NCBI RefSeq assembly: GCF_000235505.1
Contig: NZ_JH379029.1
Span: 199,798 to 263,797, forward strand
Direction of reading: 5' to 3'
DNA from: Hungatella hathewayi WAL-18680
GTDB lineage: Bacteria > Bacillota > Clostridia > Lachnospirales > Lachnospiraceae
Length of the DNA stretch: 64,000 bases
Shown: piece by piece, positions 54,282-61,576 of the stretch
Numbering within the stretch: position 1 is the stretch's first letter
Layout: each line of letters begins with the position of its first letter
Translations under genes and position numbers: made by a program
The notes under the pieces: generated by a model
Database searches by the model: none
What the model saw: only the letters and a program-made list of their open reading frames with translations
Told to the model about the DNA's origin: nothing

Positions 54282-54328
54282 CAGGCGCCCGAACGGTTTT
54301 ATCCATCCGGGCGCCTGGTTCTGTCTTT
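54282..54328 (+). terminator. Terminator after the GNAT gene
   Basis: CAGGCGCCCG (54282-54291) and CGGGCGCCTG (54308-54317) form a perfect 10-base stem followed by TTCTGTCTTTT. Confidence 0.85.
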
Positions 54329-54361: not shown

Positions 54362-54922
54362 CTACACATACCACAACTGCTCCTTCGTGGTGGAGACCGC
54401 GTCCACACCGGCGTCAAAGGCTGCCATGATGTCTTTTTTATCGGACAGCAGGCCGCCGGCTACCAGCGGGATGTCGGTGACCTGGCGGATTGTGTGGAGG
54501 ACGCCGGGCATGACGCCGGGCATCAGTTCCATGAAATCCGGCCTGAAACTTTCCAGCTGTTTTTTCATGTTGTCCAGGGCCATGGAATCGATCAGGAAGG
54601 TGCGCTGGCCTCCTATGAGACCCAGTTCGATGGCGTGGCGGACCAGCATGGGTTTGGTGCTGATGATGCCGTCGGCACTGGTGTTCTCCCTGATAAAATC
54701 AATCACAACTTCCTTCGAACTGAATCCGGCTATCAAATCCACGTGGACGATGGCAAGTTTCCCATGGTCCTTAATTCTGTCCACGATTTTCTGAATGTTC
54801 AATATGGTGCCATACAGGATAAATACCACCGTACTGTCGGTTTCCATGGCGTGATTCAGTCCCTCTTCGTTCTTGACTGCGGTAATAATCGGTGATATTT
54901 CAAATAGTTCTCTGATGTTCAA
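54362..54922 (-). CDS. glpP: Glycerol-3-phosphate-responsive antiterminator
   Basis: RNA-binding antiterminator of the GlpP family, 186 residues, which in B. subtilis binds leader RNA when glycerol-3-phosphate is present. It matches the family from start to end: ELFEISPIITAVKNEEGLN, VHVDLIAGFSSKEVVIDFI, IISTKPMLVRHAIELGLIGG and FMELMPGVMPGVLHTI. The start codon is TTG at 54922, directly behind GGGGGGAG; there is no suitable ATG. It is the last gene after the glp oxidoreductase genes, whose leader carries a terminator-like structure, making that leader its likely target. Confidence 0.95.
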   Translation of the reverse strand: MNIRELFEISPIITAVKNEEGLNHAMETDSTVVFILYGTILNIQKIVDRIKDHGKLAIVHVDLIAGFSSKEVVIDFIRENTSADGIISTKPMLVRHAIELGLIGGQRTFLIDSMALDNMKKQLESFRPDFMELMPGVMPGVLHTIRQVTDIPLVAGGLLSDKKDIMAAFDAGVDAVSTTKEQLWYV

Positions 54923-55002
54923 GCGGCTCCCCCCATCGTGCGGTATCTATTCTAACTGGCTTTATCATACAACATTGGAATCTATTTGTCATCCTGATTC
55001 TT

Positions 55003-55392
55003 CTATTGGCGGCCGTTCACAGCAGTCGTTTCTCCCTGCTCCACCTGCTTCGTCGCCACGATTGCCACGCCAGTCCCGGCGCAGTTGTCGATGAGAATGT
55101 CGCCGATGTGAACCGGAGCGCTGACTCTGGCGCGGCGGATTTCCTTCATGACATCCATGATTTTCCCCTTCGGGATATCCTGGGCTGTCTTGACCGATAC
55201 CATGGCAATCTCGCCGCCGTCCACGTGAATGCTGGAAGTCACCGTTCTGGACGGGTTCAAAATTTCCTTGACCGCATAATCCTCCCCCCGCTTGCAGGTA
55301 TTTCCCTTGACGGAAATGTTCTGGCCATCAACGCTGGCCGTCAGCGGGCAGCCTAAGGGGCAGCCGATGCAGATTAATTCTCTTGTCTCCAT
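55003..55392 (-). CDS. DUF1667 protein of the glp operon
   Basis: Small cysteine-containing protein of 129 residues in the DUF1667 family, almost always found with GlpA-like dehydrogenase and FAD oxidoreductase genes in clostridia. The N-terminus ELICIGCPLGCPLTASVDGQ with a later NTCKRGEDYAVKEILNPSR gives the family cysteine set C-x2-C-x3-C...C, likely an iron-sulfur or zinc site. GGAGGTGG precedes the ATG, which is one base after the stop of the oxidoreductase gene. It is presumably the third subunit of an anaerobic glycerol-3-phosphate dehydrogenase complex. Confidence 0.9.
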   Translation of the reverse strand: METRELICIGCPLGCPLTASVDGQNISVKGNTCKRGEDYAVKEILNPSRTVTSSIHVDGGEIAMVSVKTAQDIPKGKIMDVMKEIRRARVSAPVHIGDILIDNCAGTGVAIVATKQVEQGETTAVNGRQ

Positions 55393-55393
55393 G

Positions 55394-56734
55394 TCATTCC
55401 ACCTCCGTCCTGATCACAATCTTCTCTAAATCCGGGTAGTCCGCAAAGCTCTCTTTTTTCAGAATAATCTGCTCCATCTCGCCGGGAGCCAGAACCTTCT
55501 TTTTCTTCTTTGATATCACAGTTCCGTCATACAGGACGGTGATATAGCGGTCCTTGTAGACATCCGCCACGCGGAACCGGACGGTCACTTTGTCGCTCAT
55601 CCGCTCTACATCGATTGTCTGGGGAACGGTGTAGCGGACGCCGTTTTCCGCCTGGATGGGTACCGGGTGACCGGAACTGCTGGTGACGGCGTTATGGGCG
55701 GTAGCAGCGCTAGGAGTTCCGTTACCTGAGAGGCCGTCATTGGCAGCATCATCACCGGCGGCAGACCGGGTTACATAGGCAGCCGCATTGGCGCCGGCCA
55801 GGGCTGCTTCCTCCGATACGTAATCCACCAAATCATGAACATGAAGCACGTTGCCGCAGGCGTAAATGCCTTCCGCCCCAGTCTCCAGCCTGTCATTGAC
55901 ATTGGGACCGGAGGTGACCGGGTTCATGGAGGCGCCGGTAGCTTTTGTCAGTTCATTTTCCGGAATCAGGCCGACGGACAGCAGCAGCGTGTCACAGCTG
56001 TAATGCTCCTCCGTCCCCGGAATCGGCTTCCGGTTTTCATCCACCTTCGCAAGCGTAATGCCTGTAACCCGTTCCTTTCCCTGAATATCTATCACGGTAT
56101 GACTCAGCTTCAGCGGAATTCCGTAATCGTCCAGACACTGCACAATATTCCGCTTCAAACCGCCGGAGTAAGGCATCAGTTCCGCAACCACCTTGACTTT
56201 GGCGCCTTCCAGCGTCATCCTTCTGGCCATAATCAGTCCGATATCGCCGGAACCGAGAATCACCACTTCCTTCCCCACGCTGAATCCCTCGATATTCATC
56301 AGCCGCTGGGCGGTTCCCGCGGAGTAAATGCCGGCCGGCCGGTATCCCGGGATATTAAGCGCGCCTCTCGGACGCTCCCGGCATCCCATGGCCAGGATAA
56401 CGGCCTTCGCCTTGATGGTCACAAGACCATCCTCCCGGTTGATGTATGTAATCTCCTTTTCCTGATTGATTTCAATCACAATGGTATTCAACTTGCAGGG
56501 AATTCCCGCCTCTTTTACCATGTCAATATAGCGGGCCGCATACTCCGGTCCGGTCAGCTCTTCCTTAAACGTGTGAAGTCCAAACCCGTTATGAATACAC
56601 TGGTTTAAGATTCCGCCCAGCACGCCGTCGCGCTCCAGAATCAGAATATCCTCCACACCTGCTTTTCTGGCAGACACGGCTGCCGCCAGCCCGGCGGGGC
56701 CTCCGCCTATAATTACAATATCATGATGTGTCAT
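55394..56734 (-). CDS. FAD/NAD(P)-dependent oxidoreductase of the glp operon (GlpB-like role)
   Basis: Pyridine-nucleotide-disulfide-type oxidoreductase of 446 residues. The FAD Rossmann motif VIIGGGPAGLAAAVSARKAG is at the N-terminus, followed by the conserved GGILNQCIHNGFGLHTF, and the second dinucleotide motif VVILGSGDIGLIMARRM lies near residue 160. The C-terminal end binds FAD through GIYACGNVLHVHDL. An Ala/Ser/Gly-rich segment of about 45 residues (near 330-370) interrupts the family pattern. The ATG overlaps the stop of the GlpA-like gene (ATGA). It is likely the electron-transfer subunit of an anaerobic glycerol-3-phosphate dehydrogenase. Confidence 0.9.
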   Translation of the reverse strand: MTHHDIVIIGGGPAGLAAAVSARKAGVEDILILERDGVLGGILNQCIHNGFGLHTFKEELTGPEYAARYIDMVKEAGIPCKLNTIVIEINQEKEITYINREDGLVTIKAKAVILAMGCRERPRGALNIPGYRPAGIYSAGTAQRLMNIEGFSVGKEVVILGSGDIGLIMARRMTLEGAKVKVVAELMPYSGGLKRNIVQCLDDYGIPLKLSHTVIDIQGKERVTGITLAKVDENRKPIPGTEEHYSCDTLLLSVGLIPENELTKATGASMNPVTSGPNVNDRLETGAEGIYACGNVLHVHDLVDYVSEEAALAGANAAAYVTRSAAGDDAANDGLSGNGTPSAATAHNAVTSSSGHPVPIQAENGVRYTVPQTIDVERMSDKVTVRFRVADVYKDRYITVLYDGTVISKKKKKVLAPGEMEQIILKKESFADYPDLEKIVIRTEVE

Positions 56735-58197
56735 CGCTTTTCCCCTCCGTTTATTCCTGTCAGCATCTGGGAACCAGGTGCATTTTTACAAATGTCCTCC
56801 ATACTGATGTGAAGCTCTCTGGCCAGAATCTCCATAGTCCTCGGCGTGCAGAAGCCTGCCTGGCACCGTCCCATGCCCTGGCGCACCCGGCGCTTAATCC
56901 CGTCCAGAGATGTTGCTCCCAGGGGACGACGGATGGCGTCTATGATTTCGCCCTCGCTGACATTTTCACAGCGGCATATGATGGTTCCGTAGTCCGGGCG
57001 CTCCTTGATGAGTCTGGCCCGCTCTTCTTTCTCCATGGAATCCAGATGGGGGATTCCTTTGCGGCACGCTATAAACTGCTCTTTTTTCCCGGCGGCCGCC
57101 GCATCCGCAATCAGCTCAGCCAGATAGACTCCGATGGCCGGGGCGCAGGAGAGTCCCGGAGATTCGATTCCGGCTGCGTCGTAAAAGCCTTCCGCTCCCT
57201 CCGCCTCGCCAATCACAAAGTCGTCTCCGTCCTCATGTGCCCTTAAACCGGCAAAGGAGGTGATGACCTGGCGGTAGGGAATGTTTTTCACACTCCAGGC
57301 AGATTTGCTGATGACTTCCGCCAGTCCCTCCGCGGTTGTCGCCACATTTTCCCTGTCCTCTATATCTGTGGCGGTGGGGCCGATTAACAGGTTCCCGTGC
57401 ACGGTCGGGGTCACTAACACACCTTTTCCGTAAATGCCGGGAAGCTGGAATATGGTGGAAGTGACATGGCCGCCGGCCTCTTTGTCCAGCAGACAGTAAT
57501 CACCTTTTCTCGGCGTGATGTGGATGGGGCGGCTGCTGACCATGTTGTGGAAGGTGTCAGCGTAGACGCCGGCGGCATTTACCACATAATGAGCAGTTAT
57601 TGCTTTCGTTGTCCCTTCATGCCTGATTGTCAAACCATATCCGCCAGACTCCATTTTCTCAATACGCTCCACTTCCGTGAGCAGGCGGAATTCCACTCCG
57701 TTCTCATATGCATTTTCCGCCAGAGCGATGGTCAGACCGAAGGGGCAGACAATTCCGCCGCTGGGGGCATAGATAGCCGCTGTCACCTCATCGGTCAGGT
57801 TCGGCTCCATACTCCTGGCTTCATCCCCGGTGATAAGCCGGATACCCGGAACTCCATTGGCCACGCCCCGCTCGTAAAGCTCTTTCAGCTTCGGCTCCTC
57901 CTCCCTGGCAAAGCACAGCACCAGCGAGCCATTTCTCTTAAATGAAAAATCCAAATCCTTCGACAACTGTTCCATCATGGCGTTTCCAGCCACATTGAAC
58001 TCCGCCTTTCTCGTCCCCGGGATAGCATCATACCCGGCGTGAACGATGGCGCTGTTGGCCTTGGACGTCCCACTGCACACGTCCTCCCCCCGCTCCATCA
58101 CACATACCCGAAGCTCATATCTGGACAATTCTCTCGCCACCGCACAGCCCGTCACTCCGCCGCCGATGACAGCCACATCATACTCCCACTGACTCAT
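56731..58197 (-). CDS. glpA: Glycerol-3-phosphate dehydrogenase, GlpA-like with BFD-like domain
   Basis: FAD-dependent glycerol-3-phosphate dehydrogenase of 488 residues. The N-terminal FAD motif is VAVIGGGVTGCAVARELSRY, followed by the DAO-fold core (NSAIVHAGYDAIPGTRKAEF and AAGVYADTFHNM). The C-terminal 90 residues or so form a BFD-like [2Fe-2S] domain with ICRCENVSEGEI and CQAGFCTPR supplying the cysteines. ATG 58197 is chosen behind GAGAAAGGG; the frame opens at 58266 in the leader. It is the first gene of the glp operon, oxidising glycerol-3-phosphate to dihydroxyacetone phosphate. The glycerophosphodiesterase at 21-23 kb could supply substrate. Confidence 0.93.
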   Translation of the reverse strand: MSQWEYDVAVIGGGVTGCAVARELSRYELRVCVMERGEDVCSGTSKANSAIVHAGYDAIPGTRKAEFNVAGNAMMEQLSKDLDFSFKRNGSLVLCFAREEEPKLKELYERGVANGVPGIRLITGDEARSMEPNLTDEVTAAIYAPSGGIVCPFGLTIALAENAYENGVEFRLLTEVERIEKMESGGYGLTIRHEGTTKAITAHYVVNAAGVYADTFHNMVSSRPIHITPRKGDYCLLDKEAGGHVTSTIFQLPGIYGKGVLVTPTVHGNLLIGPTATDIEDRENVATTAEGLAEVISKSAWSVKNIPYRQVITSFAGLRAHEDGDDFVIGEAEGAEGFYDAAGIESPGLSCAPAIGVYLAELIADAAAAGKKEQFIACRKGIPHLDSMEKEERARLIKERPDYGTIICRCENVSEGEIIDAIRRPLGATSLDGIKRRVRQGMGRCQAGFCTPRTMEILARELHISMEDICKNAPGSQMLTGINGGEKR

Positions 58198-58245: not shown

Positions 58246-58301
58246 AAAAAAGAGCAAGGAAAACACACAGGGGACGTCCCCGTATGGTTCACCTTACTCT
58301 C
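58246..58301 (-). promoter_or_regulatory. Leader terminator, candidate GlpP antitermination target
   Basis: In the leader of the glp operon (minus strand) AGAGTAAGG (58301-58293) pairs with CCTTGCTCT (58259-58251) in a nine-base stem with one G-U pair, followed by a T-run (58251-58246). The loop of 33 bases contains the perfect palindrome GGGGACGTCCCC (58271-58282). This is a rho-independent terminator with an inner hairpin, placed between promoter and glpA, as expected for GlpP control. Confidence 0.72.
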
Positions 58302-58342
58302 TCATCTCATAGGCTGAATATTCTATTCGTATTCTTAAACCC

Positions 58343-58372
58343 ATGCTATCACATTCAGTGGCCGGTTGTCAA
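58343..58372 (-). promoter_or_regulatory. Promoter of the glp operon
   Basis: On the minus strand, perfect -35 TTGACA (58367-58372), an 18-base spacer and -10 TAGCAT (58343-58348) preceded by TGA, as in extended -10 promoters. Transcription should start near 58336, giving a leader of about 140 bases. Confidence 0.75.
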
Positions 58373-58390: not shown

Positions 58391-58954
58391 TCACCTTCCT
58401 GATTTCGCCTCGCTCTCAGGAAAGATAATCTTATAAATCGGAAAGTAAATCACCATCTGCACTCCGCCGTTGATAACCGTAATCAATATATTATAGACGG
58501 CCGGAGAAAAATACTGCTTGCAAAATGGCACATACAGCCCCATCAGGAAACTGCAGGCCACCGTAATCAGCACAAACGCCACCGCGTACCACGCCATCTG
58601 ATAATACACATTTCCCCTGGAGCGGAACGTGATATTCCTCTGCATGGGAAAATTGATGCACTGTGCCAGAAACAGGGTAATCGCAAAGGCGGCAAAATAC
58701 CCCATACCGCCTGTCGCATCCCCGGTAACGGGGTAGTTAAACACATATGTGTCCACCGGTCCCAGCGCCAGATGAATCAGCTGGCAGGGGATATCGCACC
58801 AGTCCGTAAACCGGTAGAAAACACCCGGCAGGAACGTCAGCACCAGGTACTGGAACACCGTCACCAGCATGGAAAAGGCGTAGAATTTTATGAATTGTGC
58901 AATTAGTTTATGTTTCGGTGCAAATTTAAGCCACCAGTCTTTGATTCCCTGCAT
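58391..58954 (-). CDS. GtrA-like membrane protein
   Basis: Small integral membrane protein of about 187 residues with four hydrophobic segments, matching the GtrA family, whose members help flip undecaprenyl-linked sugars in cell-surface polysaccharide assembly. Visible features are QFIKFYAFSMLVTVFQYLVL, the mid-protein AAFAITLFLAQCINFPMQRN with the conserved ITFRS, and a last helix ending IYFPIYKIIFPE. ATG 58954 has GGAG six bases before it and is preferred over ATG 58966. Unlike typical 130-residue GtrA proteins it has an extra 40-residue loop between helices one and two. No glycosyltransferase gene adjoins it, so its role is uncertain. Confidence 0.85.
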   Translation of the reverse strand: MQGIKDWWLKFAPKHKLIAQFIKFYAFSMLVTVFQYLVLTFLPGVFYRFTDWCDIPCQLIHLALGPVDTYVFNYPVTGDATGGMGYFAAFAITLFLAQCINFPMQRNITFRSRGNVYYQMAWYAVAFVLITVACSFLMGLYVPFCKQYFSPAVYNILITVINGGVQMVIYFPIYKIIFPESEAKSGR

Positions 58955-59087
58955 GTCAAACTCCATTTCTATGTAAATATCCTGTAATTTCGCTGTTCAA
59001 TTCTATCTTGCTGACCTATTACCCTTTTCTTTCTATTACTCTGCTCCACTGCTCTTCCTGTCCTGCTATCAGGCGATGCCGCCTGCT

Positions 59088-61542: not shown

Positions 61543-61576
61543 GAAAAGCCCCACCCGGGTCTGACCCGGGCGGGAT
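61543..61576 (-). terminator. Terminator after the small membrane protein gene
   Basis: On the minus strand CCCGGGT and ACCCGGG (61565-61571 and 61555-61561) form a seven-base stem around a three-base loop, extended by flanking G-C pairs and followed by CTTTTCC. Confidence 0.75.

Follow-up and report, generated by a model that had tools for sequence, protein, structure and literature searches.

Is the hairpin in front of the glpA-like operon of Hungatella hathewayi WAL-18680 a plain terminator, or is it a switch operated by GlpP, the antiterminator protein whose gene closes the same operon? The question was raised by a first-pass annotation of a 64,000-nucleotide stretch of contig NZ_JH379029.1 (hereafter, the window), which took the terminator to be conditional and a likely GlpP target. 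This proposal turned out to be well supported, as the element recurs before glp genes, tracks GlpP and has a second copy at the glpK gene of the same genome. We put the probability that this leader works as a transcription antitermination switch dependent on GlpP at about 0.85.

The operon consists of four genes that were identified by domain searches, with a promoter-like site directly before the last of them:

56731–58197, minus strand, glpA-like gene, encoding a FAD-dependent oxidoreductase (DAO) with a C-terminal Fer2_BFD domain
55394–56734, minus strand, FAD-dependent pyridine nucleotide-disulphide oxidoreductase
55003–55392, minus strand, DUF1667 protein
54964–54992, minus strand, second candidate promoter (ATGACA-17-TATGAT), found by scan
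54362–54922, minus strand, glpP (TTG start), glycerol-3-phosphate responsive antiterminator (PF04309)

The glpA-like gene starts with an ATG at 58197, and the best NCBIfam match of its product is type 2 glycerol-3-phosphate oxidase, with 299 bits, under the cut-off of 460. The presence of GlpP at the end of the same operon, which had been noted before, was confirmed by a PF04309 match of 210 bits. This is the sole glpP copy found in the H. hathewayi genome, and the protein has solved relatives (3kts and 1vkf) that are named glycerol uptake operon antiterminators. DUF1667 and glpP are 80 nt apart and the terminator scan detected no terminator between them; read-through should therefore raise GlpP, and this gene order makes a feed-forward loop via the operon's own glpP plausible. 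The promoter-like site at 54992–54964 could give GlpP independently of the leader, although sites resembling it are expected by chance (eight found in the region, 4.9 expected). Just past glpP, at 54282–54317, a GC-rich hairpin (CAGGCGCCC/GGGCGCCTG) with a short T-run was noticed in the sequence, a possible operon end that the terminator scan did not list. Elsewhere in the window, a 12-pair terminator-like hairpin (61549–61575) lies between a GH2 gene and the gene upstream of it.

Upstream of the glpA-like gene, the leader contains the following elements:

58343–58372, minus strand, candidate sigma-70 promoter (TTGACA-18-TAGCAT, extended -10 TG), found by promoter scan
58292–58303, minus strand, terminator 5' arm, from folding
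58270–58281, minus strand, palindrome GGGGACGTCCCC, the inner part of the terminator hairpin, which differs between leaders (window scan, alignment A2 and broad set)
58248–58259, minus strand, terminator 3' arm, entering the T-run, from folding

The promoter-like site matches 10 of 12 consensus positions and is the best of eight in the scanned 7 kb, where shuffling expects 5.5; judged from its position, the glpA transcript would start at about 58336. An intrinsic terminator (58303–58248, minus strand) stands between this site and the glpA-like gene, the first of the operon. Its outer helix has 12 pairs (58303–58292 / 58259–58248) and encloses an inner hairpin with GGGGACGTCCCC, and a T-run follows the 3' arm. 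Folding of 80 nt of the leader gave a z-score of -6.0, with 0 of 200 shuffles equally stable, and folding of 141 nt a z-score of -3.5. Promoter scan and folding thus agree with the earlier description of a promoter and a T-run terminator ahead of the glpA-like gene, and the nine-base stem described then, AGAGTAAGG/CCTTGCTCT, is the core of the 12-pair outer helix.

The first-pass annotation had also drawn attention to the palindrome GGGGACGTCCCC, which is indeed perfect and lies inside the hairpin, but which does not stand as a specific feature since it is not conserved. By eye, it is absent from all 22 other sequences of the alignment described below (A2), and a scripted search of the 106 broad-set leaders did not detect it either; it is merely the variable loop of this one leader and has a single exact occurrence in the window. 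As a target or operator, or as a dispersed REP-like repeat, the palindrome was rejected, being neither conserved nor present in a further copy. The 95-base leader is not a dispersed repeat either, because it is single-copy in its own genome, the next DNA match elsewhere having an E-value of 0.135; a plasmid DNA search with the leader likewise gave no match. An explanation of GGGGACGTCCCC as a DNA operator or REP-like repeat would fit the perfection of the palindrome, yet the genome contains this leader sequence only once and other leaders lack the palindrome, so that we give it almost no credence.

For the comparison with relatives, genome contigs were scanned for relatives of the glpA-like protein, and 23 loci encoding one were obtained. 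Eleven of these have a similar leader immediately upstream of glpA, the other 12 have none at that place, and in 11 of the 23 a second leader is found before glpK. The glycerol kinase of one locus, L013, passes the NCBIfam cut-off; in this locus, a MgtC family gene lies between glpK and glpA. Alignment A2 comprises 23 sequences, including the window leader, and in all 23 of them GAGA and AGAG are invariant, so that the shared motif is GAGAN4AGAG, whereas the inner loop, including the palindrome, is not conserved. The outer terminator stem shows compensatory changes: before glpA it is typically AGAGTAAGG/CCTTACTCT, before glpK AGAGCAGGG/CCCTGCTTT, two pairs being altered on both sides. The alignment of relatives' leaders, which the first-pass annotation had named as a check, therefore upheld an invariant purine motif and a compensatory stem, but not the palindrome. 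In the window, the motif corresponds to the following feature:

58297–58308, minus strand, purine loop GAGATGAGAGAG, conserved motif and predicted GlpP recognition site (alignment A2 and enrichment)

A covariance model built from A2 (R1) was run on 397 genomes of the family and, with matches to the complementary strand of these hairpins left aside, found 26 places in 18 genomes. Twenty-two of these precede glpA (11), glpK (6), glpP (2) or mgtC followed by glpA (3); of the other four, two stand in front of a gene of the sodium/hydrogen exchanger family in the vicinity of glpQ, and two have no glp gene nearby. In the H. hathewayi genome, a second leader (L063), which was outside the training set, is located directly before glpK, 5 kb beyond the window, and the glycerol kinase encoded behind it scores over the cut-off. 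This genome contains no further R1 match at E ≤ 0.5. Weak third and fourth matches have E-values of 0.68 and 2.5; the third was discarded, as it resembles, by eye, part of an ABC ATPase gene.

The distribution of the leader follows that of GlpP. PF04309 is over its cut-off in 109 of the 397 family genomes, among them 16 of the 18 that have a leader; without the three training genomes, GlpP is present in 13 of 15 leader genomes against 106 of 394 overall (Fisher p 1.4e-6, uncorrected for kinship). The two GlpP-negative leader genomes (G093 and G124) carry leaders, L051 and L055, that have no glp gene within 1.5 kb on either side. These results bear on the possibility that the hairpin is an ordinary unregulated terminator of the upstream gene (58391–58966), or a constitutive attenuator. 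Such a role would suit a strong hairpin downstream of a gene on the same strand. However, a promoter-like site separates that gene from the hairpin, conservation of the 5' motif contrasts with a changing stem, and the element is found repeatedly before genes of linked function and in step with GlpP; we therefore regard an unregulated terminator as very improbable.

In L046, L050 and L053, the gene behind the leader is mgtC-like, and glpA comes after it. Two genomes that belong to one genus (L061:1501–1576 and L062:1501–1576) have a leader in front of a gene of the sodium/hydrogen exchanger family, with glpQ about 1.2 kb away; this may mark a new regulon member or possibly only a terminator.

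A broader set was assembled from 120 GlpP loci, of which 60 belong to the family and 60 were drawn from across the phylum, and from 30 earlier loci (L010–L039). A first terminator scan, which was too lax (425 places, many of them coding by eye), was tightened, and in the stringent scan identical sequences were counted once. GAG-N3-8-GAG was found at the terminator left arm in 109 of 253 terminators within 320 nt before glp-type genes versus 100 of 3110 others, several of these 100 being leaders that lie about 1 kb before glpK, in the glpF position. Three motif places before FADox were dropped as probably coding before the swap test described below, which left 106 leaders. These precede glpA (48), glpP (18), glpK (17), glpD (7), glpF (7), genes labelled ugpB (5; ABC solute-binding protein genes, putative as to substrate), glpQ (2) and mgtC (2), and since 18 of them stand before glpP itself, autoregulation of glpP by the leader element looks common. 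The share of glpA is inflated by loci fetched with glpA; among loci fetched by GlpP alone, glpA is the commonest gene behind leaders, with 37 of 77. The earlier remark that the operon departs from the usual glpF/glpK/glpD arrangement is thus only partly correct: glpA is prominent, but glpK, glpF and glpD carry leaders too. Among the Lachnospiraceae, leaders before ABC solute-binding protein genes were seen in L011, L012 and L016.

Counted by locus, a motif-bearing terminator lies ahead of a glp gene in 65 of the 120 GlpP loci (36/60 and 29/60, duplicates kept) and was not found there in the other 55; motif and stem together occur before a glp gene in 52 of 120. After removal of duplicates, 62 of 120 loci have a leader; with duplicates kept, the count of 65 rises to 71 of 120 once leaders at other places in the locus are included, provided that their stem score is at least 12. 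In 63 of the 106 leaders, a promoter-like site precedes the motif by no more than 75 nt, at a median distance of 26 nt; the same holds for 88 of 2120 random positions. A control on glpK, which used the best-scoring glpK genes with 30 loci per side, and in which the exclusion of model-match genomes from the positive set lowered the positives, was weak: the motif with stem occurred in 3 of 30 GlpP-positive versus 1 of 30 GlpP-negative genomes, and any motif judged non-coding by eye in 7 of 30 versus 1 of 30 (Fisher p 0.05). Plain strong terminators up to 300 nt before glpK were commoner in GlpP-negative genomes (14/30) than in GlpP-positive ones (6/30). Beyond these groups, Cytobacillus spongiae (Bacillaceae) has the same architecture before glpD, with GGUU/GACC (by script), and before glpF, with GUGA/UCAC around AAGAGAUUAAGAGAC (by eye); the window leader and the Cytobacillus glpF and glpD leaders, which here stand in place of those of Bacillus subtilis, therefore have a putative RNA target in common.

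How could binding at a purine motif interfere with the terminator? The flanks of the GAG triplets pair with each other, as in ACCTT/AAGGT, TTACC/GGTAA, GCCT/AGGC, GGGTTAG/TTAACCC, AGGACTT/AAGTCCT and others. In the window, the two strands are:

58311–58314, minus strand, antiterminator left strand X (GCCT), predicted, which can pair with 58291–58294
58291–58294, minus strand, antiterminator right strand X' (AGGT), overlapping the terminator 5' arm, predicted from the stem tests

A stem score of at least 9 was reached in 83 of the 106 leaders, compared with a mean of 30.7 and a maximum of 44 when right flanks were swapped among leaders (2000 swaps). The mean score was 9.87, against 5.74 (sd 0.37) after swapping, and none of the 2000 swaps attained the observed mean; the same was true within the family (67 leaders), the phylum-plus-plasmid subset (39), and the subsets restricted to distinct right flanks (74) or distinct left flanks (78). 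The result persisted when the motif was picked by different rules, with 1000 swaps for each. Within A2 alone, support for the stem is modest, its covariation score being reached by 10 of 500 shuffles and its number of changed pairs by 53 of 500, and some leaders of the broad set score low, for example L146 and L166. X' overlaps the terminator left arm in all 83 stem-bearing leaders, an overlap made more likely, though not imposed, by the search window. Because X' sits within this arm, the antiterminator and terminator hairpins are mutually exclusive. The stem GCCT/AGGT of the window amounts to about -1.4 kcal/mol on its own, versus -32 for the terminator; termination would therefore be the default and a protein would have to hold the alternative. 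The conserved part of the element is GAG-N3-8-GAG at the foot of the terminator left arm together with a short flanking stem.

GlpP might instead merely cover the foot of the terminator left arm as a single-stranded purine site, with no antiterminator hairpin being formed. The motif overlaps the left arm, the window stem has only four pairs including a G-U at -1.4 kcal/mol, and in some leaders the stem is minimal or missing (scores 0–6), all of which would suit such a mode. Flank complementarity far above that of swapped leaders in every subset, and stems of six to eight pairs in several loci from other families, in Enterococcus and in Escherichia coli, speak for the hairpin, so that we consider simple covering unlikely.

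Mutually exclusive helices are also typical of riboswitches and of leader-peptide attenuators, either of which would sense a metabolite without GlpP. Inspection by eye found a 16-codon ATG frame that starts in the -10 box, and the frame ATG-AGA-GAG-TAA in the window, with ATG-ACA-GAG-TAA at this place in several relatives. The three-codon frame is absent from GAGACGA leaders and has no stop in glpK leaders, and a leader peptide was discarded since the short frames, judged by eye, are not common to all relatives. Rfam searches of the whole window at the gathering cut-off and of the leader at E-values up to 1 gave no match, those of six other leader loci gave no known riboswitch, and the loop appears small for an aptamer. 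Together with the association with GlpP, these results leave sensing by the RNA or by a leader peptide scarcely credible.

The switch that we propose builds on the elements computed here, namely the promoter-like site, the terminator, the motif, the covarying and overlapping stem, the recurrence before glp genes and the association with GlpP; the binding of GlpP, its dependence on glycerol-3-phosphate and the resulting read-through are modelled on B. subtilis. Without GlpP loaded with glycerol-3-phosphate, AGAGTAAGG would pair with CCTTGCTCT, the terminator would form and transcription would stop before glpA. Loaded GlpP would bind the purine loop GAGATGAGAGAG and thereby hold the weak hairpin in which GCCT and AGGT flank the loop. 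As AGGT belongs to the terminator left arm, the terminator would be blocked and the glpA-FAD oxidoreductase-DUF1667-glpP operon would be transcribed, which would place glpP under positive autoregulation. With the same switch at the glpK gene of this genome, phosphorylation of glycerol and oxidation of glycerol-3-phosphate would therefore be switched together.

The element appears to extend to E. coli K-12 MG1655, where ygcP, annotated as a "putative anti-terminator regulatory protein", encodes a PF04309 protein with 42% identity to the window GlpP over 184 residues. The divergent ygcW/yqcE intergenic region (L309:15275–15592, NC_000913.3), 5.5 kb from this orphan gene, contains two leaders, one toward yqcE-ygcE, in which ATTACT and AGTAAT flank GAGACCTGAG, and one toward ygcW, in which AGTTACC and GGTAACT flank GAGATAATGAG. 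In both, a hairpin comes next and then a run of at least 8 T, and there are no other such sites in the 20 kb of E. coli sequence examined. Two or more sites occurred in 1 of 5000 Markov shuffles of the intergenic region, which was selected once the leaders had been found, and in 4 of 200 shuffles of the 20 kb. At 80% coverage, 4998 of 5426 E. coli genomes contain the intergenic region, and it is too uniform for a covariation test. Relevant parts of the literature include ygcW/yqcE among predicted Crp sites (PMC1794230) and describe divergent constitutive promoters there (PMC3946193), and among the papers that our literature search listed, none mentions ygcP together with antitermination. On a plasmid of Enterococcus raffinosus (L036, at about 5640, minus strand), a leader with an eight-pair stem precedes an MFS gene divergent from glpP, and the MFS protein is 31.8% identical to YqcE. 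On balance, we favour a single GlpP-recognised element that spans Lachnospiraceae, other Bacillota, Bacillaceae, Enterococcus and E. coli, where YgcP would act via the two leaders on yqcE-ygcE and on ygcW with the co-oriented ygcU-ygcS-ygcR-ygcQ. The leaders thus offer a concrete recognition element and a model of mutually exclusive hairpins; they also single out likely targets of GlpP in gut Lachnospiraceae and lead to predicted targets of YgcP in E. coli K-12.

The closest known systems are glpD, glpFK and glpTQ of B. subtilis, which resemble the window operon in having a promoter, a leader terminator, a PF04309 GlpP and, probably, genes for glycerol and glycerol-3-phosphate. According to the sections of PMC9604022 that deal with glp regulation, the B. 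subtilis glpD, glpT and glpFK promoters share a common promoter, GlpP site and leader terminator, GlpP with glycerol-3-phosphate disrupts the leader terminator at glpD, glpFK and glpT, and deletion of glpP abolishes induction of the glpD system; a review states in its passage on GlpP that it "binds the antiterminator" (PMC7430163). The B. subtilis hairpin may already have been described by Holmberg (1991/1992) or Glatz (1996/1998). Unlike these operons, that of the window combines glpA-like, FAD oxidoreductase, DUF1667 and glpP genes and has glpP behind the switch, a comparison that draws on Cytobacillus and on portions of published text.

Antiterminator and terminator are mutually exclusive in the LicT and SacY systems as well. 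In this BglG family, too, a protein-bound antiterminator hairpin opposes the terminator, as the corresponding section of PMC7430163 describes; there, LicT contacts two bulges and the intervening stem, whereas the window leader conserves a purine loop. GlpP itself belongs to PF04309 and is not of the BglG type. Repeated NAG/GAG triplets are recognised by TRAP, whose protein family, like that of HutP, is unrelated to GlpP. HutP likewise recognises such triplets, according to the part of PMC7430163 devoted to it; unlike the targets of both proteins, the window leader has only two GAG triplets, which are enclosed by a stem. Set beside these systems, the leader most likely represents a known kind of switch placed in a new operon context; novelty is most likely to lie in how the element is defined and in its extension to E. 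coli.
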